Source of the DNA: Cytophagales bacterium
Lineage (GTDB): Bacteria > Bacteroidota > Bacteroidia > Cytophagales > Spirosomataceae
DNA: 64,000 nucleotides
Assembly (NCBI GenBank): GCA_013298215.1
Contig: JAAFKE010000002.1
Location: 1-64,000, forward strand
Direction: 5' to 3'
A program made the translations under genes and the position numbers. The notes beneath the pieces are model-generated. The model saw nothing but the letters and a program-made list of their open reading frames with translations. It did no database searches and was not told the DNA's origin. Positions 1-11,214 of the stretch are shown here, one piece after another (the first letter of the stretch is position 1; every line of letters begins with the position of its first letter).

Positions 1-98
1 ACTTGCCATTGAGAATCGGTGAATTCAGAGAAATTTGTTTTCATTATCTTATGTTTTTTGTCAATCACAAGATAAGCCGATTCTTTATTTATCACAAA

Positions 99-1241
99 TT
101 ATTCAAATCCCAAACATACTCTTAAAGTTTGGTTTTGTTGTTCGTTATTTTTTAAGTTTTCATTAATAGGGTTTATTAGTGCTTGAAAGTTGTCTAATAT
201 ACTTTTCTCTGGAATGATTAATTTTATTTCTTCAAATTGTGTTTTATTAATCATTGGCATTGTAGAACCACCCGTAGCCATGTTTCTTAATAATTCATAA
301 TTGTTCAATAAATTGTAGTACAAAAAATCAATTAGATTTTTGTCTGCAACTATTGAATTTATTTGTTGATTTGTAATACAATCAACCGAATTGATACTTA
401 CTTTTCCCATATCTGAACCAATACAGGTAACTATTACTGAATTTTCAGGAATAACTTTATTTTTAAGCCCATTTATTCCTTCGTTTGAAAGCCTACGATA
501 AGAAGAAGTAATTATTTTTCCATAGTTTTTAAAATCTGTGGGCGTAACAAATGGCATTATATCCCCAAAATGTAAAGGAGTGTTGCTTGATGGGGTTTTG
601 CCTGTAACAACCCTCCCTATTTCAGATATTTTCCCAACTCTCCAACCTTCTGGCAACTCTTCACTTTTGGGCAAACACATTTCCTTAAAAAGAGTTTGAG
701 CAATGGCTTCTAAGGTTTGATTGGTTTGTCTATTCAGTTCTATCTTTTCGTCTAAGGAAGAAAGAATAGAAGCGATTTTTGTCTGGGTTTTGAGTGGGGG
801 AAGTAAAAGTTCAAGATTTTCAAACGCTTCTTTATTAACCCTTTGTCTTCCCGATGTCCCAATCATATTTTGCTCTGCAAACTTCCTAACTTCCTGCCAA
901 CAGGCTAAATAATAGACATAATCTTTATTAGAAATATTTAGCTTATCTCTAAAAACTAAAAATTCAGTTGAGCCAAAACCAACACCGTTTTTTAATTTTT
1001 TAGCCTGCCCAATTTTACCATTTTCGAGGCAAGGAGAAATTCTTGCAAACAATGTATCATCTTCTTGAAATCTTGCACCACCTGTAACTTTTCTCTCAGC
1101 AGACGGTTCAACAAACCTTTTACCTTCCGAAAGGTCTTTCATTTCGATAAATGAAAAATCTCCGTCTCCTTTCAGAGAAATAGTAGGATTTATCAAAACA
1201 AAATCTGGAAATTTATACGTCTTCCACTCCTTATCATTCAT
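99..1241 (-). CDS. hsdS: Type I restriction-modification specificity subunit
   Basis: About 380 aa. This subunit gives the type I methylase/nuclease complex its DNA target. The protein has the two-half HsdS plan: a first target-recognition domain (about residues 1-150), a conserved helical spacer (KIASILSSLDEKIELNRQ, about 155-185), a second recognition domain beginning at LPEGWRVGKISEIG, and a shorter second spacer at the C-terminus (NENLKNNEQQNQTL). I take the ATG at 1241, two bases after the stop of the upstream nucleotidyltransferase gene; a TTG at 1247 is also possible. It is the last gene of the operon seen in the window, and hsdR is not visible, so it may lie beyond the left edge. The gene is AT-rich compared with hsdM. 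Confidence 0.9.
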   Translation of the reverse strand: MNDKEWKTYKFPDFVLINPTISLKGDGDFSFIEMKDLSEGKRFVEPSAERKVTGGARFQEDDTLFARISPCLENGKIGQAKKLKNGVGFGSTEFLVFRDKLNISNKDYVYYLACWQEVRKFAEQNMIGTSGRQRVNKEAFENLELLLPPLKTQTKIASILSSLDEKIELNRQTNQTLEAIAQTLFKEMCLPKSEELPEGWRVGKISEIGRVVTGKTPSSNTPLHFGDIMPFVTPTDFKNYGKIITSSYRRLSNEGINGLKNKVIPENSVIVTCIGSDMGKVSINSVDCITNQQINSIVADKNLIDFLYYNLLNNYELLRNMATGGSTMPMINKTQFEEIKLIIPEKSILDNFQALINPINENLKNNEQQNQTLRVCLGFE

Positions 1242-1243
1242 AT

Positions 1244-1549
1244 TCAATGGTTTTTATAAAGTACTATTCCCACACGGTTGATGTGGTCGATCAGGTCGGG
1301 GTTTGCTATTTGATGTAAGATAGATAAATCAAAAACATTGGGTAGCAGTAGGTCGTCCAACTCCAATTCAATTTGGCCGAGTAAGGTAAGATTTAGGGCA
1401 TCGCCGACTAAAACCAAATCAATGTCGGAGGCGGGTTTATGGTTTCCTTTGGCTCTTGAGCCAAACAAAATAGCTTTGTCAATGGCTTTATATTTATTTA
1501 AGACCGTTACAATCTGCTCTATTTGGGTTTCTTTAAGTCCGTAATTCAT
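1244..1549 (-). CDS. MNT-family minimal nucleotidyltransferase (antitoxin-like)
   Basis: 101 aa, the usual size of a minimal nucleotidyltransferase. It shows the pol-beta-fold signature GSRAKG at residues 30-35 followed by SDIDLVL, giving metal-binding Asp42 and Asp44, with a likely third Asp at 74 (NVFDLSIL), so the active site appears complete. In HEPN/MNT pairs this enzyme modifies (AMPylates) the HEPN partner and neutralises it; that is family knowledge, not shown here. It lies 7 bp downstream of the HEPN gene and 2 bp upstream of hsdS, so it is probably co-transcribed with the restriction-modification genes. Confidence 0.88.
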   Translation of the reverse strand: MNYGLKETQIEQIVTVLNKYKAIDKAILFGSRAKGNHKPASDIDLVLVGDALNLTLLGQIELELDDLLLPNVFDLSILHQIANPDLIDHINRVGIVLYKNH

Positions 1550-1556
1550 TTTTTAT

Positions 1557-2015
1557 CTACAACGATGCGTCTTGTTGAGCTGACTTTATTGTTTCCATTT
1601 TTGTTTCAAGCGCTAAAAATAATTGATGGTAAAGGCTTATAATCTTCTCAAAAATTTCCTCCGCAATCGCCTCATTGTAGGTATGTGAGATCTTGTTTCT
1701 ACTAACAATCATATCCATCCAGCCTTCACCGTTTTGTATTAAATTCAACTTAAATGCCTCTCGTGTTGCATCTATAGACCCTCCAATTAAGTTATTGCCC
1801 TGATATTCAGCATAATCTTTCATAAGATTCCAAGCTAATTCATGGGTAAATTCAAAACGCTGTATTAATCCTTCTTTCAACATTTCATCAATACCATCAA
1901 GACTTTCTTCATGCTCTTCAAATCTCTTATTAATTAGAGAAACCCCCTCTGAAAGCTTTAATAAGGCTTTTTTATAATTTGAAAACCTTTGTTGCCATCT
2001 AATATCTTGTTGCAT
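1557..2015 (-). CDS. HEPN-domain protein (HI0074-type nucleotidyltransferase substrate-binding)
   Basis: 152 aa, all-helical in composition, matching the HI0074-type family usually annotated as nucleotidyltransferase substrate-binding. Recognisable blocks are EGLIQRFEFTHELAWNLMKDY (about 48-68) and a HEPN RX4-6H motif at R106-H111 (RNKISH), followed by TYNEA. HEPN proteins with this motif can act as RNases in toxin-antitoxin pairs; the motif being present argues for a potentially active toxin, but activity is inference. It starts 5 bp after the hsdM stop and is followed by its MNT partner. Confidence 0.87.
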   Translation of the reverse strand: MQQDIRWQQRFSNYKKALLKLSEGVSLINKRFEEHEESLDGIDEMLKEGLIQRFEFTHELAWNLMKDYAEYQGNNLIGGSIDATREAFKLNLIQNGEGWMDMIVSRNKISHTYNEAIAEEIFEKIISLYHQLFLALETKMETIKSAQQDASL

Positions 2016-2020
2016 AGTGT

Positions 2021-3577
2021 TTAATTAAGTTTTATTTCAAATCCAATAGTTTTTAAATTTTCACGAATCGTTTTTTCTAATGCGTCGCCTTCGGCAAATT
2101 GCTTGGCCAAGAGGGTCGTGAGGGTTTGCATTTTTTCGGCAAAGGGCACGGTGTCCGCTATTTCTTCTTCCGTGCCCACGTACCGCCCGGGCATGAGCAC
2201 ATACCCGTTTTCTCTTACTTCGTCGAGGGTGGCCACCTTGCAAAACCCTGCAACGTCTTCGTACTTATTGTCGGTTTTTCGCCAATTGTGGTAGGTGTCG
2301 CTCACCTGTTTTAGGTCGGTGTCGGTCAGTTCTCGGCTTCTGCGGTTCACCATCGTTCCCAGTTTTCGGGCATCAATAAAGAGTATTTCGTCTCTTCGCG
2401 ACCTCACCCCAGCCCTCTCCATCGGAGAGGGAGCATTGCTCACTTTGTTCTTGGTCAAAAACCACAAACAAGCGGGTATCATGGTGTTATAAAACAACTG
2501 AGAGGGCAAAGACACCATGCAGTCAATCAACCCTGCCTCAATCATGTTTTTTCTTATTTCTCCCTCGTTGCCACTGTTGCTGTTCATGCTGCCATTGGCA
2601 AGCACAACGCCAGCCACGCCGTTGGGGCTCAGTTTATGCACAAAATGTTGTAGCCAGGCATAATTGGCGTTTCCCAACGAAGGCACGCCGTATTTCCAGC
2701 GTATGTCGTCACGGAGTTGTTCGCCGCTCCAATCGCTGATATTAAAAGGAGGGTTGGCAATGATAAAATCGGCTTTGAGGTCTTTGTGTTTATCGTCCAA
2801 GAGGGTGTCGCCCAGTTCTATTTTGGCATCAATGCCCCGTATTGCCAAATTCATTTTAGACAACCGCAGCGTGGTAGGGTTGCTTTCTTGGCCATAAATA
2901 GAAAGGTTTTGAATGTTTCCTTGGTGTTCTTTCACAAATTTTTCGGACTGCACAAACATTCCACCACTCCCACAGCAGCCATCATACACCCGCCCGTTGT
3001 AGGGTTGGAGCATTTCTACCAACAACTTCACAATGCTGGGAGGGGTATAAAACTGCCCCCCTTTTTTTCCTTCGGCATCGGCAAATTGCCCCAAAAAATA
3101 CTCATAGACAATCCCCAAAAGGTCTTTGGCTTGGTTTCCTTCTTGCTTAAAACCAATCGTACCGATGAGGTCAATGAGTTCGCCGAGTCGTTGTTTATTG
3201 AGTTCGGGGTCGGCGTATATTTTTGGTAAAACGCCCTTCAAACTACTATTAATTTTTTCGATGGCATCCATTGCCTCGTCAATCAGCTTACCAATTTCGG
3301 GTTGTTTGGCTTTGTCTTGGAGGTATTGCCAGCGGGCAGTTTCGGGCACATAAAACACATTATAGGCCAAATACTCGTCGGGGTCGTTGGGGCTGGCCCC
3401 CTCAAAGTCACCTAAACCGCCCAATAGTTTGTAATAATGGGCATTGAAGGCATCGGAGATATACTTCAAGAAAATAAGCCCCAGCACAACGTGTTTGTAC
3501 TCGGCGGCATCCATGTTGCTTCTCAATTTATCGGCGGCCGCCCAAAGTGTTTTTTCTAAATCTTTAATGTCAGTCAT
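2021..3577 (-). CDS. hsdM: Type I restriction-modification DNA methyltransferase subunit
   Basis: 518 aa from the ATG at 3577 ([12 protein letters not shown]), preceded by AGAAG; the open frame extends 21 codons further upstream, but family members begin as chosen here. The N-terminal helical domain is followed by the N6-adenine methylase domain: FYTPPSIV near 176, the SAM-binding DGCCGSGG near 199 and the catalytic NPPF near 275. The protein makes m6A and pairs with HsdS. About 15 residues near 381-395 ([13 protein letters not shown]) are foreign to the family and come from a palindromic repeat in the DNA; the frame is kept and flanking motifs LTKNK and [11 protein letters not shown] are normal. 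It is the first gene of the operon, 72 bp after the thiolase gene. Confidence 0.93.
2402..2433. repeat. Dispersed palindromic repeat inserted in frame in hsdM
   Basis: The plus strand reads CTCACCCCAGCCCTCTCC, a 3-base loop, then GGAGAGGGAG, giving a perfect 8-bp stem (2413-2420 with 2424-2431). This C/T-rich palindrome resembles small repeats that I know recur in many unrelated bacterial genomes. Here it is translated as part of HsdM. I saw no second copy in the window. Confidence 0.7.
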
Positions 3578-4861: not shown

Positions 4862-5746
4862 CTATTCAGTCTTTTTGACCACCAACGGATACAGCAAAAC
4901 GGCGGCCAAAATAACCACCGTACCCGCATAAAAGCCAGGGGTCATCCGCTCGCTTTCTCCAAATATAAAGTAGGCCAGCACAATACCATAAACGGGTTCG
5001 AGGTTCACGGTCAGGTTGAGGGTAAAGGGCGTGAACTTGCGGAGCAACTTAATGCCCTGCGAGTAGGCGTAAACGGTGCAGACCAACGCCAAAATAACGA
5101 TCCAAAGCCACTGGTCGAGTTGCGGCCAAATGTCTAATTTTTTGTCGAACCACGCCCAGTAAGCCACCATGACCACGGTAGTAGAACCCAGCGCACCGAG
5201 TATTTCGTAGAAGGTGAGCACCAGATAATCGTGTTTTTGGGTAAAACGGGCGTTGAAAACCGTAAAAACTGCCGCCAAAAAAGCCGAAAAAATAGCGATT
5301 ATCAACCCCAAAGAACGGTCGAACTCGAACCGAAAAATGAGGTACAGTCCCGCCATAATCACAAAACCCAGCAGCACCTCTACCCAGCGCACGGCCCGTT
5401 TATTGAGCACCGGGTCGAGCAAACTCGTCCAAAGCGAGCTGGTGGCCATGCCCGCCAAGCAAACCGAAGCGTTGGCCACCCTGGCCGCCCAGAAAAACGC
5501 CAGCCAATGCAACCCCAAAAGTACGCCAACCAAAAGCACTTGGTTGCGGGCGCGGGCGGGCATGGTGGCGGGCCTGTGCGTGAAGTACAAAACCGCTCCC
5601 AGGCCAACGGCGGCAATGGCAGTTCTAAAAAAAACCAGTGCCAGCGGCGAGATACTATTGGCGAGCAGCCCCAAAATGGCGGTGAAACCCCAAATGAGTA
5701 CTAAGAAATGCAGCTGAAAATAATCGCGCAGGTTGGGTTTGGTCAT
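4862..5746 (-). CDS. EamA-family (DMT) membrane transporter
   Basis: 294 aa, almost entirely hydrophobic, with about ten predicted membrane helices in two five-helix repeats, the EamA/RhaT drug/metabolite transporter plan. The N-terminal repeat starts at LHFLVLIWGFTAILGLLA, and a second repeat ends with FGESERMTPGFYAG, a typical EamA block. The substrate cannot be predicted; such proteins export amino acids or other small metabolites. Its ATG overlaps the lptF-like stop codon (ATGA), so the two are translationally coupled. Confidence 0.88.
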   Translation of the reverse strand: MTKPNLRDYFQLHFLVLIWGFTAILGLLANSISPLALVFFRTAIAAVGLGAVLYFTHRPATMPARARNQVLLVGVLLGLHWLAFFWAARVANASVCLAGMATSSLWTSLLDPVLNKRAVRWVEVLLGFVIMAGLYLIFRFEFDRSLGLIIAIFSAFLAAVFTVFNARFTQKHDYLVLTFYEILGALGSTTVVMVAYWAWFDKKLDIWPQLDQWLWIVILALVCTVYAYSQGIKLLRKFTPFTLNLTVNLEPVYGIVLAYFIFGESERMTPGFYAGTVVILAAVLLYPLVVKKTE

Positions 5747-6819
5747 CTCGGTAGGGTCTTAAACAGCAACGCGCCAACGCCCGCAAACACAATATTGGGC
5801 AGCCAAACGGCCAGCAACGGCGGCATCTTGCCCGACTCGGCAATGCCCTTGGAGAGCAGGTAGAACAAAATATAAAAGAACGCCAGCGCAAAACCCAGCG
5901 CAATTTGCAGTCCAACGCCCTGCCTGCTCTTTCGGGCCGACACGATCACGCCGATGGCCGTCAGAATAAGCATGGCAAATGGCTGGGTAAAACGGGTATA
6001 TTTTTCGATCAGATAGGTTTCGATGCCGTCCGAACCACGGCTGCGAAGTTTGGCAATGTGGTCGTTCAACTCGTTGAGGGTCAGGGTTTCGTTGAGGAGG
6101 TGGGTGTCCTCAAAATCTTTGGGCGACAGGTTTATGACGGTGTCTTTCTGGGTGCCGTAAGAGATAGACTCCTCCTGGCCGTTTATTTTGCGAAGGCGGT
6201 AATTGTAGATCGTCCATTTTTTTTTGTCGGGCAGCCACACAATGCGGTCGGCGGTTAGTTTCTCGGTTAGCTTGTTGCCCTCAATTCGTTCGAGCGTAAA
6301 TTTATTACCCGTCAGCGTGAGGGTCTCGTAGTTTTTCATGTAGGCGTACAGATTGGGCGCAATTTTGAGGTGTACGTGGTTTTCGTTGAACGAAAACGCC
6401 GCCCGCACGTACTTTTGTTCAAAGTCGATCCGTGTTTTGTCGGCTTTGGGGATCACCCAGCCCATCATAAAAAAAGTAACAATACCCAAAATACTCGCTC
6501 CAATAAAATAAGGCACCAGCATTCGCCCAAAACTAATGCCACTGCTCAAAATGGCGATAACTTCGCTTTTGGCCGCCATCCGCGAGGTGAAGAAAACGGT
6601 GGCAATAAAAACCAGAAGCGGGCTTATGAGGTTAGAATAGTGCAAGATTAGGTTTGGGTAATAATCCCTCAAAATCAACAGCATCGGGGCGTTTCGCTTG
6701 TGAAAATCGTCGATCTTTTCCGTAAAATCAATCATGCAAATAATGAGCACAATCACAAAAGTGACGAACAAGTACGTGAGCAAAAACTGCTTGATGATGT
6801 ATCTATCTAATATTTTCAC
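5743..6819 (-). CDS. LptF/LptG-family lipopolysaccharide export permease
   Basis: 358 aa, the normal length of the YjgP/YjgQ family. It has three N-terminal membrane helices (ILDRYIIKQFLLTYLFVTF onward), a large periplasmic beta-jellyroll region (about 130-260) and three C-terminal helices. It starts MKILDRYIIKQFL, a family hallmark, from a GTG at 6819. LptF and LptG form the inner-membrane part of the LPS transporter with the ATPase LptB; which of the two paralogues this is cannot be told here. It lies 24 bp after an exported NTF2-like gene and overlaps the EamA gene by 4 bp. Confidence 0.9.
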   Translation of the reverse strand: MKILDRYIIKQFLLTYLFVTFVIVLIICMIDFTEKIDDFHKRNAPMLLILRDYYPNLILHYSNLISPLLVFIATVFFTSRMAAKSEVIAILSSGISFGRMLVPYFIGASILGIVTFFMMGWVIPKADKTRIDFEQKYVRAAFSFNENHVHLKIAPNLYAYMKNYETLTLTGNKFTLERIEGNKLTEKLTADRIVWLPDKKKWTIYNYRLRKINGQEESISYGTQKDTVINLSPKDFEDTHLLNETLTLNELNDHIAKLRSRGSDGIETYLIEKYTRFTQPFAMLILTAIGVIVSARKSRQGVGLQIALGFALAFFYILFYLLSKGIAESGKMPPLLAVWLPNIVFAGVGALLFKTLPR

Positions 6820-7696: not shown

Positions 7697-8146
7697 GTGG
7701 ATCAGTTAAGTTATAAAACCATCTCAGCCAACGCTGCATCAGTCGAAAAAAACTGGGTAGTGGTAGATGCCAATGGATTAGTGTTGGGGCGTTTGGCCAG
7801 TCAGATTGTGAACGTTTTGCGCGGAAAGCACAAAACAGCCTTCACGCCGCACGTAGATTGCGGCGACAATGTAATCGTTGTGAATGCCGACAAAATACGC
7901 TTCACGGGCAAGAAATTGACCAAAAAGGTGTACGTTCGCCACACTGGCTATCCAGGTGGTCAGCGTTTCACTACGCCACGCGAGCTGCTCGAAAAGAAGC
8001 CCGAGTCGGTCATCGAAAAGGCAGTGAAAGGAATGTTGCCAAAGAGTCGCTTGGGTCGCAGACAGTTCACAAACCTGTACGTTTATGCAAGCGCGGAGCA
8101 TCCGCACGCCGCCCAGCAGCCCACCGAAGTATCCTTTAAATTATAA
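7697..8146 (+). CDS. rplM: 50S ribosomal protein L13
   Basis: 149 aa. Clear uL13: [19 protein letters not shown], the [23 protein letters not shown] block, [13 protein letters not shown] and [13 protein letters not shown]. It assembles early in the 50S subunit. The start is a GTG at 7697 (encoding MDQLSYKT), matching the N-terminus usual in Bacteroidota; no ATG fits upstream. It is followed after 8 bp by rpsI, the universal rplM-rpsI pair. Confidence 0.97.
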
Positions 8147-8154
8147 GATATATC

Positions 8155-8541
8155 ATGTCAGCAATCAATACAATTGGTAGAAGAAAAACTGCCATCGCCC
8201 GTATTTATATGACACCCGGCAGCGGAGATGTTAAAATAAATGGCCGCGATTTTAAAGAATACTTCCCCGTAGATACACTTCAAATTATTTTGAAGCAGCC
8301 CCTGATGACGATCAACGCCACAGACGGTTACGACATTAAAGTGAACGTGAAAGGTGGTGGTATCAAGGGCCAAGCCGAGGCTACGCGCATGGCAATAGCC
8401 CGCGCACTTTGCGAGTTCAACTTGGAGTTCCGCCCCGCGCTGAAAAAAGAAGGCTTCTTGACGAGAGATCCCCGCATGGTGGAACGCAAAAAGTACGGTC
8501 GCCGCAAAGCACGTCGCCGCTTCCAGTTCTCGAAACGATAG
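8155..8541 (+). CDS. rpsI: 30S ribosomal protein S9
   Basis: 128 aa. uS9 features are NTIGRRKTAIARIYMTPG at the start, GGGIKGQAEATRMAIARAL in the middle and the basic C-terminal tail GRRKARRRFQFSKR whose end reaches the P-site tRNA. ATG start at 8155, 8 bp after rplM. Confidence 0.97.
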   Translation: MSAINTIGRRKTAIARIYMTPGSGDVKINGRDFKEYFPVDTLQIILKQPLMTINATDGYDIKVNVKGGGIKGQAEATRMAIARALCEFNLEFRPALKKEGFLTRDPRMVERKKYGRRKARRRFQFSKR

Positions 8542-8558
8542 TAATCATTCAACGAGCA

Positions 8559-8596
8559 GCCACCAACCAACCTGTGTTTCAGGCTCAGTTGGTGGC
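8559..8596 (+). repeat. Inverted repeat between rpsI and rpsB
   Basis: GCCACCAAC at 8559-8567 and GTTGGTGGC at 8588-8596 form a perfect 9-bp stem with a 20-nt loop. There is no following T-run, so it is not a classical terminator. It lies 17 bp after rpsI and 89 bp before rpsB and could be part of an rpsB leader or an RNA processing site. Confidence 0.5.
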
Positions 8597-8685
8597 AGCC
8601 CGCCAATATTTTGTCCAGACAGTGCTTATCGTTGCCGGTGCGCTGTGCTGCATATTTTAATCGTTACCTTAATTAACCCAAACAA

Positions 8686-9501
8686 ATGGCACAAATAGAA
8701 TACAAAGACCTGCTGGATGCAGGCGTGCATTTTGGTCACATGACCCGTAAGTGGGATCCACGCATGGCACCGTATATTTTCATGGAAAAGAACGGTATCC
8801 ACATCATCGACCTTAATAAAACGTTGGCTTCATTAGACGAAGCCTGCAATGCCATTAAGCAAATGGTGCGCTCTGGCCGCAAAATTATGTTTGTAGCAAC
8901 CAAGAAGCAAGCGCAAGACATTGTTACCGAAGAAGCCCGCCGCCTAAAAATGCCATACGTCACCGAGCGTTGGTTGGGTGGAATGCTCACTAACTTTGCC
9001 ACAGTCCGTAAATCGTTGAAGAAGATGCAGGGCATCGACAAAATGATGAAAGACGACTTGACTTACAAGAGCCTGGCCAAGCGCGAGCGTCTGACAATAT
9101 CGCGCGACAAAGAAAAATTGGAGCGTTTGTTGGGTGGTATCACAGACTTGTCGCGCCTACCAGCGGCGCTGTTTGTGGTGGACGTGAAGCGCGAGCACAT
9201 TGCCGTGAAAGAAGCCCACCGCTTGGGTATTCCTGTTATTGCCATGTGCGACACAAACTCAAATCCCAACGACGTTGAATTTGCTATTCCCGCCAACGAC
9301 GATGCTTACAAGTCTATATCGCTCATTACCCTTGCCATTGGTAAGGCCATAGAAGAGGGTATTTTGGAGCGTAAGCAAGACAAAGACGATGCCCGCGTGC
9401 AAGAAGAGGAAGATGCCAAGCGCATCGAAGACGGTGTTGGCGTGCCCGCACCCGTTGTAGCAGAAGCACCGCAGACCGAGGTCGAGGCAGATCAGGCATA
9501 G
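8686..9501 (+). CDS. rpsB: 30S ribosomal protein S2
   Basis: 271 aa. uS2 hallmarks are YKDLLDAGVHFGHMTRKWDP, YIFMEKNGIHIIDL, RWLGGMLTNFATVRKSL and GIPVIAMCDTNSNP. It has an acidic C-terminal extension of about 40 residues (from about 232), as seen in many Bacteroidota S2 proteins. It precedes tsf, the common rpsB-tsf order. Confidence 0.97.
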   Translation: MAQIEYKDLLDAGVHFGHMTRKWDPRMAPYIFMEKNGIHIIDLNKTLASLDEACNAIKQMVRSGRKIMFVATKKQAQDIVTEEARRLKMPYVTERWLGGMLTNFATVRKSLKKMQGIDKMMKDDLTYKSLAKRERLTISRDKEKLERLLGGITDLSRLPAALFVVDVKREHIAVKEAHRLGIPVIAMCDTNSNPNDVEFAIPANDDAYKSISLITLAIGKAIEEGILERKQDKDDARVQEEEDAKRIEDGVGVPAPVVAEAPQTEVEADQA

Positions 9502-9528
9502 ATAAATAATACACATTGAGACATGCTT

Positions 9529-9560
9529 AGATAGCCCGTAGTTTTAACTATGGGCTATCT
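9529..9560 (+). promoter_or_regulatory. Strong hairpin between rpsB and tsf
   Basis: AGATAGCCCGTAG (9529-9541), loop TTTTAA, CTATGGGCTATCT (9548-9560): a 13-bp stem with a single G-U wobble. No U-tract follows, so it is not an obvious intrinsic terminator; it may attenuate readthrough, protect the rpsB mRNA end or act as a regulatory leader of tsf. Confidence 0.6.
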
Positions 9561-9611
9561 GATTTCAGACAAATTAGTTCGTTCATAATTTTATCATTTA
9601 CAAGCAAAAAA

Positions 9612-10451
9612 ATGGCAGCAATTACCGCAGCAGATGTAAACAAACTCCGCCAGATGACGGGCGCAGGCATGATGGATTGTAAAAAAGCCCTCACCGAAGC
9701 CGAGGGCGATTTTGAAGCCGCAATTGATATTCTTCGCAAAGCGGGCCAGAAAGTGGCCGCAAAACGTGCCGACAACGCAACGTCGGAGGGAATCGTGCTG
9801 GTACACGTGAGCCCAGACGGAACCAATGGCAAGCTCATTGCGCTGGCCTGCGAAACCGAGCCAGTGTCGAAAGTAGCTGATTTTCAGAACTTAGCAATGG
9901 CGCTGATGAGCACTGCCGTGGCTACCCACGCCGCCGATAAAGAAACTTTATTGGCCACTGTGCAGGGCGATGGCCGCACCGTGAGCGAGCAAATGGTGGA
10001 GCTGATCGGAAAGATTGGCGAGAAATTAGATTTGATGGCCTACGAAAACGTGACTGCCGAGCGCATCGTTTCGTATGTACACTCCAACAACAAGTTGGGC
10101 GTATTGGTGGCTTTCGGCCAAGTTGGTGGCGCAGATTTGGCAGAGGTTGGCAAAGACATTGGTATGCAAATTGCCGCCATGAAGCCAGTGGCACTCGACA
10201 AAGCAGACGTGAGCGCCGAGACCATCCAGCGCGAAATAGAAATCGGTAAAGAACAAGCCCGCGCCGAAGGAAAACCCGAGGCCATGCTCGACAGAATTGC
10301 CGAAGGCAAACTAAATAAATTTTACAAAGACAGCACCTTGCTCAACCAAGAGTTTGTCAAAGACTCGTCGCTGACGATTGCCCAGTTGATCGAAAAGACC
10401 CAGAAGGGCCTTAAAATTACGTCTTTCAAGCGCATTGCAATAGGAGGTTAA
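9612..10451 (+). CDS. tsf: Translation elongation factor Ts
   Basis: 279 aa. EF-Ts, the nucleotide-exchange factor of EF-Tu. The N-terminal UBA-like domain reads DVNKLRQMTGAGMMDCKKAL, followed by the two core subdomains (GKIGEKLDLMAYE, GVLVAFGQVGG, DIGMQIAAMKP) and the C-terminal LNQEFVKDSSLTIAQLIEK. ATG at 9612. It is followed directly by an intrinsic terminator. Confidence 0.97.
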   Translation: MAAITAADVNKLRQMTGAGMMDCKKALTEAEGDFEAAIDILRKAGQKVAAKRADNATSEGIVLVHVSPDGTNGKLIALACETEPVSKVADFQNLAMALMSTAVATHAADKETLLATVQGDGRTVSEQMVELIGKIGEKLDLMAYENVTAERIVSYVHSNNKLGVLVAFGQVGGADLAEVGKDIGMQIAAMKPVALDKADVSAETIQREIEIGKEQARAEGKPEAMLDRIAEGKLNKFYKDSTLLNQEFVKDSSLTIAQLIEKTQKGLKITSFKRIAIGG

Positions 10452-10473
10452 TGACTGTATGTTAGCCACGACA

Positions 10474-10507
10474 AGCCCCGATGGTTCTGCCATCGGGGCT
10501 TTTTTGT
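10474..10507 (+). terminator. Intrinsic terminator of the ribosomal/tsf operon
   Basis: AGCCCCGATGG, loop TTCTG, CCATCGGGGCT followed by TTTTTTG: an 11-bp GC-rich stem and a T-run, 22 bp after the tsf stop. Confidence 0.93.
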
Positions 10508-10523
10508 TAAAATCATTTTAGTG

Positions 10524-10556
10524 TTGGCCAACGCGCACCATTTGGTTTGATATTTG
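10524..10556 (+). promoter_or_regulatory. Putative promoter of the ECF sigma operon
   Basis: TTGG at 10524-10527 and GATATTTG at 10549-10556 (one mismatch to TAnnTTTG), spaced 21 bp. The predicted start near 10563 is compatible with either the TTG at 10588 or the ATG at 10615 as start codon. Confidence 0.5.
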
Positions 10557-10614
10557 CAGCTCGCTATGTTACCATAAACCTCTTTTCTTGTCTAATAAAA
10601 GTAACCCTTTCGCG

Positions 10615-11214
10615 ATGAAAAATCACAGTGATGAAGAGTTAGTCCGCTTGTATGTTGAAACCCAGCGGAACGCGTATTTTGAGGAGTTATACGAGCGATA
10701 CAGTGATAAAGTGTTCAGAAAGTGCCTGTCGTTTGTGAAAGATCGGGCAAAAGCCGAAGATTTTACGCACGATATTTTTATAAAACTGATCGTAAAGATT
10801 GGGAGCTTTAAGGAAACATCGCGGTTTTCGACGTGGTTATTTTCGATTACCTATAACTTTTGCATGGATCAGTTGAGGTCGAATAAAAAAGCACCTGAGA
10901 CTGAGCTGGACGAAGACATGGACTTGGCCAACGAATACGAGGCTGACGAACTGGAAGAGGTAGAAATGGAGGCTGTGCGTCTGAGGCAGGCATTAGACAA
11001 GGTAGCCCCCGACGAGCGTTCCATCGTACTGATGAAATACCAAGACGATTTTAGCATCAAAGAAATTGCCGACGTTTTCAACATTACCGAAAGTGCCGTT
11101 AAAATGCGCCTAAAACGCACCCGAGAAAAATTGAAAAAGTACTACTTCGAATCAGTAGTAATCTGGATTCTGGCAGTTGCTAAAATCATGCTGATTCTGA
11201 AATCATACTTTTGA
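10615..11214 (+). CDS. ECF-type RNA polymerase sigma factor with hydrophobic C-terminal tail
   Basis: 199 aa from ATG 10615; a TTG at 10588 would add nine residues. Region 2 is clear (FEELYERYSDKVFRKCLSF, KAEDFTHDIFIKL, FSTWLFSITYNFCMDQLR), then an acidic linker (ELDEDMDLANEYEADELEE), then region 4 (LDKVAPDERSIVLMKYQDDF, IKEIADVFNITESAVKMRL). After the usual end (REKLKKYY) comes a hydrophobic tail, SVVIWILAVAKIMLILKSYF, long enough for one membrane helix. No recognisable anti-sigma gene follows; instead there is a small protein and an MscS channel. Confidence 0.9.
   Translation: MKNHSDEELVRLYVETQRNAYFEELYERYSDKVFRKCLSFVKDRAKAEDFTHDIFIKLIVKIGSFKETSRFSTWLFSITYNFCMDQLRSNKKAPETELDEDMDLANEYEADELEEVEMEAVRLRQALDKVAPDERSIVLMKYQDDFSIKEIADVFNITESAVKMRLKRTREKLKKYYFESVVIWILAVAKIMLILKSYF

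Follow-up and report, generated by a model that had tools for sequence, protein, structure and literature searches.

Introduction

HEPN/MNT pairs, the type VII toxin–antitoxin systems, are characterized by two signature motifs, RX4HXY in HepT and GSX10DXD in MntA (PMC7641770). In relatives described in the available parts of PMC7641770 and PMC11586414, the MNT puts AMP on a tyrosine of the HEPN and the HEPN is thereby silenced. In the account of the L. pneumophila pair (PMC11586414), as far as that text was available, type VII pairs act as toxin–antitoxins and the MNT is described as labile; mutants in R98 or H103 of RX4HXY hardly altered the RNase activity of the HEPN, while Q44 and E47 mattered. 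The trigger of HEPN/MNT pairs is called open in the available text of PMC7641770. HEPN genes are also known from restriction-modification loci. The available part of one survey (PMC3710099) links at least 16 HEPN clades to such loci, argues from PrrC-EcoprrI that the restriction system holds HEPN RNases back, and lists endonucleases, helicases and ATPases, not methylases, as fusion partners of HEPN domains.

The junction of hsdM and hsdS has its own literature, to judge from what was available of each source: Campylobacter has accessory open reading frames (ORFs) there (PMC5183652), Prevotella intermedia has one unknown gene between hsdS and hsdM (PMC5608340), and in EcoKI the translation of hsdM is coupled to that of hsdS, and an M–S fusion made by engineering is functional (PMC3510504).

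HEPN/MNT pairs, HEPN genes in restriction loci and an embedded nucleotidyltransferase–HEPN candidate, PDC-M05, are already known. The new element is that the antitoxin, not the HEPN, is joined to a subunit of the methyltransferase; no description of an MNT–HsdS fusion was found in the open-licence PubMed Central literature searched. This paper describes a HEPN/MNT pair in a type I operon of a Cytophagales bacterium and its recurrence in other loci.

The operon and its HEPN/MNT pair

The window, that is, the whole stretch of DNA that was analysed (64,000 nucleotides), carries in its first 3.6 kb the gene order hsdM–HEPN–MNT–hsdS, all on the minus strand. Both hsdM and hsdS, which were taken as the test of a type I operon, are present in the window by Pfam. 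The features are as follows:

2021..3577, minus strand: hsdM, type I N6-adenine methylase subunit, 518 aa, ATG at 3577 (Pfam N6_Mtase 4.5e-111, HsdM_N 2.5e-26)
1557..2015, minus strand: HEPN of the HI0074/PF08780 class, putative RNase toxin, 152 aa (PF08780 6.7e-39; TIGR01987/HI0074 1.1e-25)
1244..1549, minus strand: MNT, minimal nucleotidyltransferase, putative AMPylating antitoxin, 101 aa (Polbeta 4.4e-19)
99..1241, minus strand: hsdS, type I specificity subunit with its C-terminus replaced, ATG at 1241 and stop at 99 (Methylase_S 7.2e-41)
1..122, no strand assigned: end of a repeated IS-like element interrupting hsdS and responsible for the contig break (98 bp identical at 5 places)

The gaps are 5 bp between hsdM and HEPN, 7 bp between HEPN and MNT and 2 bp between MNT and hsdS, and both signature motifs are present, which confirms the complete pair that the first-pass annotation had placed between hsdM and hsdS. 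In the HEPN, RX4HXY reads RNKISHTY at residues 106-113 (R106, H111, Y113), and Q52 and E55 align with the metal-site residues Q44/E47 of the solved L. pneumophila HEPN; in the MNT, GSX10DXD reads GSRAKGNHKPASDID at residues 30-44. The HEPN chain (152 aa) matches HEPN-type families only and is without an N-terminal ABC NTPase. Its closest solved relative by sequence is the L. pneumophila HEPN 8xdj (6.8e-41), and the solved chain closest to the MNT is L. pneumophila 8xeh_E (2.3e-25). An AlphaFold2 model of the HEPN (pLDDT 91.9, 39-row alignment) superposes on 8xdj with an rmsd of 1.1 Å, 52% identity and a TMq of 0.82. The NCBIfam MntA antitoxin model NF047752 gave the window MNT 41.1 bits, under its cut-off of 60; since that equivalog represents a different branch of MntA, the MNT is assigned by PF18765 and by its solved L. 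pneumophila counterpart. Sequence, motifs and fold all place the window pair in the type VII HEPN/MNT toxin–antitoxin kind, as the earlier annotation had it. RNase activity of the HEPN and AMPylation by the MNT are predicted from the solved relatives.

The HsdM of the window is 81% identical to that of G186. A palindromic stretch at 2403-2431 in hsdM encodes part of a 13-residue segment and is seen as an 8-residue insertion relative to the G186 HsdM; it was rejected as a dispersed repeat, the exact pattern having one match in the genome.

The damaged restriction half

The first-pass annotation needs a correction here, for the operon is damaged. The window starts at the first base of contig C12, and its bases 1-98 are found again, identical, at four other places of the assembly (five in all), the shared repeat reaching window base 122-126. 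Each copy of the repeat ends 0-3 bases from a contig end (known for the end of contig C1, deduced for the others from cut-off loci), and the repeat looks like the end of an insertion sequence; a minus-strand ORF start, about 14 codons of it in the repeat, runs off the window end. The repeat takes the place of about 17 C-terminal residues of HsdS, which is native to about ...NNEQQNQTLR, VCLGFE and the stop being supplied by the repeat. The C-terminal end of the G186 HsdS is LRDTLLPKLMKGEINI. A version of (L/Q)R(D/N)xLLxxLM is present in each of the eleven other HsdS, at the C-terminus or close to it (in L233, before a longer tail).

In addition, a cognate hsdR was not found in the assembly, which is 99.97% complete by its label. 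Three HsdM_N matches stand against two HSDR_N matches, each of the latter accompanied by an hsdM and an hsdS of its operon, and HsdR queries from L006 and G186 match only these two, at 27-33% identity. The cognate hsdR may be absent, the alternative being an assembly gap. Because the C-terminus of hsdS is replaced and no cognate hsdR was found, the type I restriction system of the window is probably defective. The HEPN and the MNT are intact despite the damage to hsdS. Therefore, a coupling that needs HsdR or full-length HsdS would not be in force in this strain, loss of restriction did not prevent survival, and the pair may by now be no more than an ordinary toxin–antitoxin here.

Recurrence of the pair between hsdM and hsdS

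The pair was found in the slot between hsdM and hsdS in 12 distinct loci, always in the order M–HEPN–MNT–S and on one strand (L019, which begins after hsdM at a contig edge, is counted among the 12). The first-pass annotation had proposed a neighbourhood search for recurrent order; with 11 further loci, an arrangement private to the strain of the window is out. Six of the 12 come from a set of 80 named-genome loci with the closest HEPN relatives (the best 80 of 95 passing, and so not an even sample), namely Mariniflexile (L006), two Bacteroidales MAGs (L013 and L019), Olleya (L022) and Prevotella/Prevotellaceae (L066 and L076). A survey of 395 genomes of the phylum gave 108 HEPN matches in 84 genomes, and all 108 were examined, as the window, two batches of 60 and 45 stretches and two matches lying inside other stretches; 3 lie in the slot (window, G131 and G013), in keeping with the earlier statement that such pairs mostly stand elsewhere. 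A survey of 395 genomes of the class gave 31 HEPN matches in 28 genomes, of which 4 are in the slot (window, G590, G530 and G446). Other phyla were covered via the 80-locus relative set and collections of plasmids and viruses. The slot counts are lower bounds, since the hsd profiles were grown from few seeds and the flanks span about 1.5-8 kb or are cut by the contig; near-duplicates repeating the window, G131 and G013 (L001, L086, L087, L093, L198) are excluded from them. A chance estimate, which is arithmetic on assumed counts (3000 genes per genome, no more than 1000 hsdM genes), gives fewer than 0.1 slot cases among 108 matches, and recurrence in 11 further loci is more than chance.

In viral contigs, a seven-row HEPN alignment had 58 pattern matches and not one was confirmed; among 72,556 plasmid records, 93 match the HEPN, 81 of these being from Piscirickettsia; and a family-level search around G131, which covered 3 genomes only, added no new case.

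The spacings from hsdM to HEPN and from HEPN to MNT are -11 to +11 bp in 8 of the 12 loci, and these short spacings and overlaps fit translational coupling. Wider gaps occur between hsdM and HEPN in L013, L066 and L076 (425 to 1313 bp) and between MNT and hsdS in L066 (103 bp) and L076 (623 bp); those of L066 and L076 are partly filled by other ORFs. The RX4HXY motif is kept in all 12 slot HEPNs (and in 119 of 121 stand-alone HEPNs), as is GSX10DXD in all 12 slot MNTs. The metal-site E is likewise kept in 12/12, and the Q is changed to K in three HEPNs, those of L022, G530 and G446, the last two making up the whole L234/L235 fused clade. For L013/L019, the one pair with unsaturated dS (elsewhere dS is saturated or not computable), dN/dS is about 0.12 for the HEPN and 0.27 for the MNT, values that indicate purifying selection on both genes in these loci.

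Among 140 stand-alone loci the HEPN comes first in 128; in 9 no MNT was found, in 2 HEPN and MNT are fused, and in 1 the MNT comes first. Stand-alone pairs are thus also HEPN-first, so the order in the slot is inherited, and by position only the MNT could fuse to HsdS.

Some relatives of the pair have other arrangements. In L025 and L027 (Spirochaetia) HEPN and MNT form one reading frame of 251 aa at 7992-8747, and L043, from a gammaproteobacterial MAG, has a HEPN-MNT-HEPN triplet at 4921-6019. In L030, HEPN-MNT is followed by an Eco57I/TaqI_C-type methylase (8001-10715), a possible tie to another restriction type; this locus, not being a type I slot, was not counted.

Scattered distribution of the slot on the trees

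In a HEPN tree of 133 rows (IQ-TREE, LG+C20 PMSF), which left out identical rows and rows outside 125-215 aa, the in-slot label takes 6 changes, at least 5 of them forced by well-supported branches; these changes are gains or losses, and the tool warned of long branches. The number was 6-6 over 200 bootstrap trees, and shuffled labels took 11.7 changes on average, none of 500 shuffles being as low as 6. With at least 5 forced changes on this tree, an ancient single capture is rejected. The in-slot HEPNs form three groups that are unfused (window; L013/L019; L066/L076) and three that are fused (L006/L022/G131; G013/G590; G530/G446). A quick FastTree tree of the MNTs, used without its support values, has 8 changes for the in-slot label and 5 for the fused label and, unlike the HEPN tree, sets G131 (L116) apart from L006/L022. 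A quick HsdM tree also has 6 changes for the in-slot label, and both quick trees agree in showing the label scattered.

The HsdM nearest to that of the window, G186, is followed directly by hsdS with a short overlap and without HEPN-MNT, that is, the site is empty. Furthermore, the nearest non-slot rows to L066/L076 and G131 on the HsdM tree are L216 and L215, whose slot cargo is YhcG and Bro-N, respectively; the chassis is the same and the cargo different.

The junction as a cargo site

The hsdM-hsdS junction of this HsdM clade (L198-L227) is a cargo site. Among 30 loci with the closest HsdM genes, the window included, hsdM is followed directly by another ORF in 20, by the HEPN in 2 and by hsdS in 6 (5 by script and L202 by reading), and L200 and L219 were not distinguishable. 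The slot position, which the first-pass annotation had called unusual, is therefore not unusual for cargo in general. Ten of the ORFs after hsdM were searched against Pfam and gave ORF6N, KilA-N, Bro-N, two YhcG (DUF1016), AlbA/Schlafen and Fic, with no hit for three; these three have weak matches to PD-Lambda-3_A. The slot ORF of L217 matches RmrA. With so many unrelated genes in the slot, position by itself counts for little as evidence. The PADLOC Specificity_I model PDLC03083 also matches a Bro-N cargo protein, which suggests that HsdS is fused to other cargo too; no cargo–HsdS fusion was found among the cargo ORFs of the fetched HsdM loci, a small sample with hsdS often outside the stretch.

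Two further loci are of note for their cargo. The second type I operon of the window genome (L084, 4624-7546) has several ORFs in its hsdM-hsdS gap, the first of which resembles DUF1016/YhcG by eye. L076 (6669-9357) has second slot cargo, a 372-aa ORF preceding HEPN-MNT and a 203-aa ORF following the pair; the 372-aa ORF contains an HPFxxGNGR stretch, which we take to be Fic-like.

Fusion of the MNT to the specificity subunit

The MNT and HsdS lie in one reading frame in 7 of the 12 loci (L006, L022, G131, G013, G590, G530 and G446) and are separate genes in 5, the window among these. All seven fusion proteins consist of an N-terminal Polbeta and two Methylase_S stretches, and GSX10DXD is intact in each of the seven fused MNT domains. 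The fusions fall in three HEPN clades and their linkers are unlike: in G530 and G446 the MNT runs almost directly into HsdS, and in G013 and G590 there are about 20 extra residues. A model of the L006 fusion (pLDDT 75.5 overall, >80 across residues 1-110) contains the MNT fold (8xeo_B, TM 0.95 by target, 50% identity) and the HsdS fold (1yf2). Between L122 and L233 the MNT is 86% identical and the first 170 aa of HsdS 31%, and between L006 and L022 the values are 72% for the MNT and 35% for HsdS; by these comparisons the fused MNT is retained while the adjoining half of HsdS is exchanged. In G131 (L116, 6110-9679), hsdR of the fused operon is three ORFs and may be broken or mis-assembled.

The PADLOC model PDLC03138 (Type I specificity subunit) matches the L006 fusion at residues 10-269, at profile positions 10-277 of 485. 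Because this profile spans MNT and HsdS, such fusions are already in public clusters with the MNT unnamed, and public models named only as specificity subunit can hide an antitoxin domain. As to plasmids, the L006 fusion matches 384 records, and none of the 15 listed aligns both MNT and HsdS; one record outside these 15 reportedly covers at least 80% of the query. The L122 MNT domain matches 87 plasmid records; the 40 listed have nucleotidyltransferase features and no specificity subunit, and one of them also includes the HEPN partner.

Proposed mechanism and its rivals

The best reading, which we hold tentatively and at slightly below an even chance, is a backup toxin like PrrC, with AMPylation as its gate and a tie to the methyltransferase. 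The coupling is proposed because the specificity subunit is made together with the MNT and in several relatives includes it; the coupling and its trigger are both suggested by anatomy and analogy. In favour of the reading are the family, motifs and fold of the pair, its recurrence in one order, the repeated changes on the HEPN tree, the empty site of G186, the fusions and the exchange of HsdS behind a retained MNT, the purifying selection in L013/L019 and the PrrC precedent. Against it count the cut hsdS and the hsdR not found in this strain, the many unrelated genes in the slot, the small share of slot cases in the phylum survey (3 of 108), the separate MNT of 5 of the 12 loci, the K at the metal site of three HEPNs, the ORFs around the pair in L066 and L076 and the three-part hsdR of L116. 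According to this proposal, the cassette would sit in the hsdM-hsdS junction with the M–HEPN–MNT–S genes staying translationally coupled. The HEPN would be an RNase, kept quiet by the MNT, which with ATP would put AMPs on the tyrosine of RX4HXY. As the MNT would be made with HsdS, the supply or activity of the antitoxin would be tied to the M2S methyltransferase; if M2S were lost or engaged by a phage anti-restriction factor, the HEPN would no longer be kept AMPylated and the cell would stop. The pair would then be an abortive backup arm like PrrC on EcoprrI, with AMPylation and not an ABC ATPase as the gate. The fusion in 7 of 12 loci is better support for coupling than the first-pass annotation had. 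A stronger form, in which the methyltransferase of the fused branches is a guard and the AMPylation state of the HEPN reports whether M2S is intact, on unmodified DNA or blocked by an anti-restriction protein, we regard as unlikely; if true, DNA recognition would steer an abortive arm that cuts RNA and has AMPylation as its gate, and such an arm would have been selected several times independently.

The pair might instead be self-contained and mere cargo of a permissive junction that gathers mobile defence and toxin–antitoxin genes, the fusions being harmless read-through of overlapping frames. This explanation is possible, if doubtful on the whole. It is favoured by the varied families found after hsdM in 20 of the 30 closest HsdM loci, by the Bro-N match of PDLC03083 with its hint that other cargo is fused as well, by the intact HEPN-MNT in the broken operon of this strain, and by the engineered M–S fusion that EcoKI tolerates (in what is available of PMC3510504). 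It sits less well with the fused MNT of 7 of 12 loci, spread over three HEPN clades, set against no cargo–HsdS fusion in the small cargo sample, and with GSX10DXD kept in 7/7 fused domains. Addiction, in which a stable HEPN RNase would arrest or kill cells that lose the operon as the supply of MNT stops, guarding the locus without any sensing of phage, is quite unlikely in our estimation. Type VII pairs are indeed toxin–antitoxins with a labile MNT in L. pneumophila (according to the available text of PMC11586414), and an antitoxin tied to hsdS, the last gene of M–HEPN–MNT–S, would punish truncation of the operon; however, the window operon is cut at hsdS and the pair is not lost, and covalent silencing of an AMPylated HEPN could outlast loss of the MNT. 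Very improbable, finally, is recruitment of the MNT to modify a restriction-modification subunit, regulating methylation or restriction, with the HEPN mainly a substrate-binding partner. The MNT being covalently part of HsdS in 7/12 loci would suit such a role, but all 12 HEPNs retain RX4HXY and its acceptor tyrosine, which points to the HEPN as substrate.

Whatever the mechanism, a recurrent covalent link between antitoxin and specificity subunit is a concrete candidate input for the trigger of HEPN/MNT pairs. Moreover, it would give a second mechanism, AMPylation, to the idea drawn from PrrC that restriction systems guard suicide RNases.

Comparison with known systems

The HEPN-MNT of L. pneumophila (8xdj, 8xeh, 8xeo; PMC11586414) is, like the window pair, a PF08780-type HEPN with a short MNT, and the two share RX4HXY, GSX10DXD and the Q/E metal-site residues; the available text of PMC11586414 mentions no restriction-modification partner, whereas the window pair lies between hsdM and hsdS. 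HepT/MntA of Shewanella oneidensis (SO_3166/SO_3165; PMC7641770) has both motifs and the HEPN fold (6m6w, 5yep) as in the window. However, its HepT belongs to another HEPN branch with about 14% identity to the window HEPN, the pair is stand-alone, and the MNT is upstream of the HEPN in the available description (PMC7641770), while in the window the HEPN comes first.

Among embedded systems, PDC-M05, a nucleotidyltransferase with HEPN in the available account (PMC12988326), and PDC-S09 are set in defence loci as the window pair is, and the window MNT weakly matches PDC-S09 (7.8e-11) and, partially, PDC-M05A (1.1e-8). The window HEPN has no match among PADLOC models at 1e-3, nor has the L122 HEPN at 1e-10. 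PDLC03138 carries a label without an MNT domain, and in the window MNT and HsdS are separate genes. The mlo/rlo of Campylobacter hsd loci are accessory ORFs between hsd genes, the M–S junction included; their likeness to the window is one of position, taken from the available description (PMC5183652). A further parallel is PrrC in EcoprrI (type IC), a HEPN RNase encoded within a type I operon as in the window; the available parts of PMC3710099 and PMC3874165 propose that the restriction-modification complex keeps this RNase silent. The PrrC chain itself includes an ABC NTPase, and there is no MNT, whereas the window has a 152-aa HEPN alone together with a putative AMPylating partner.
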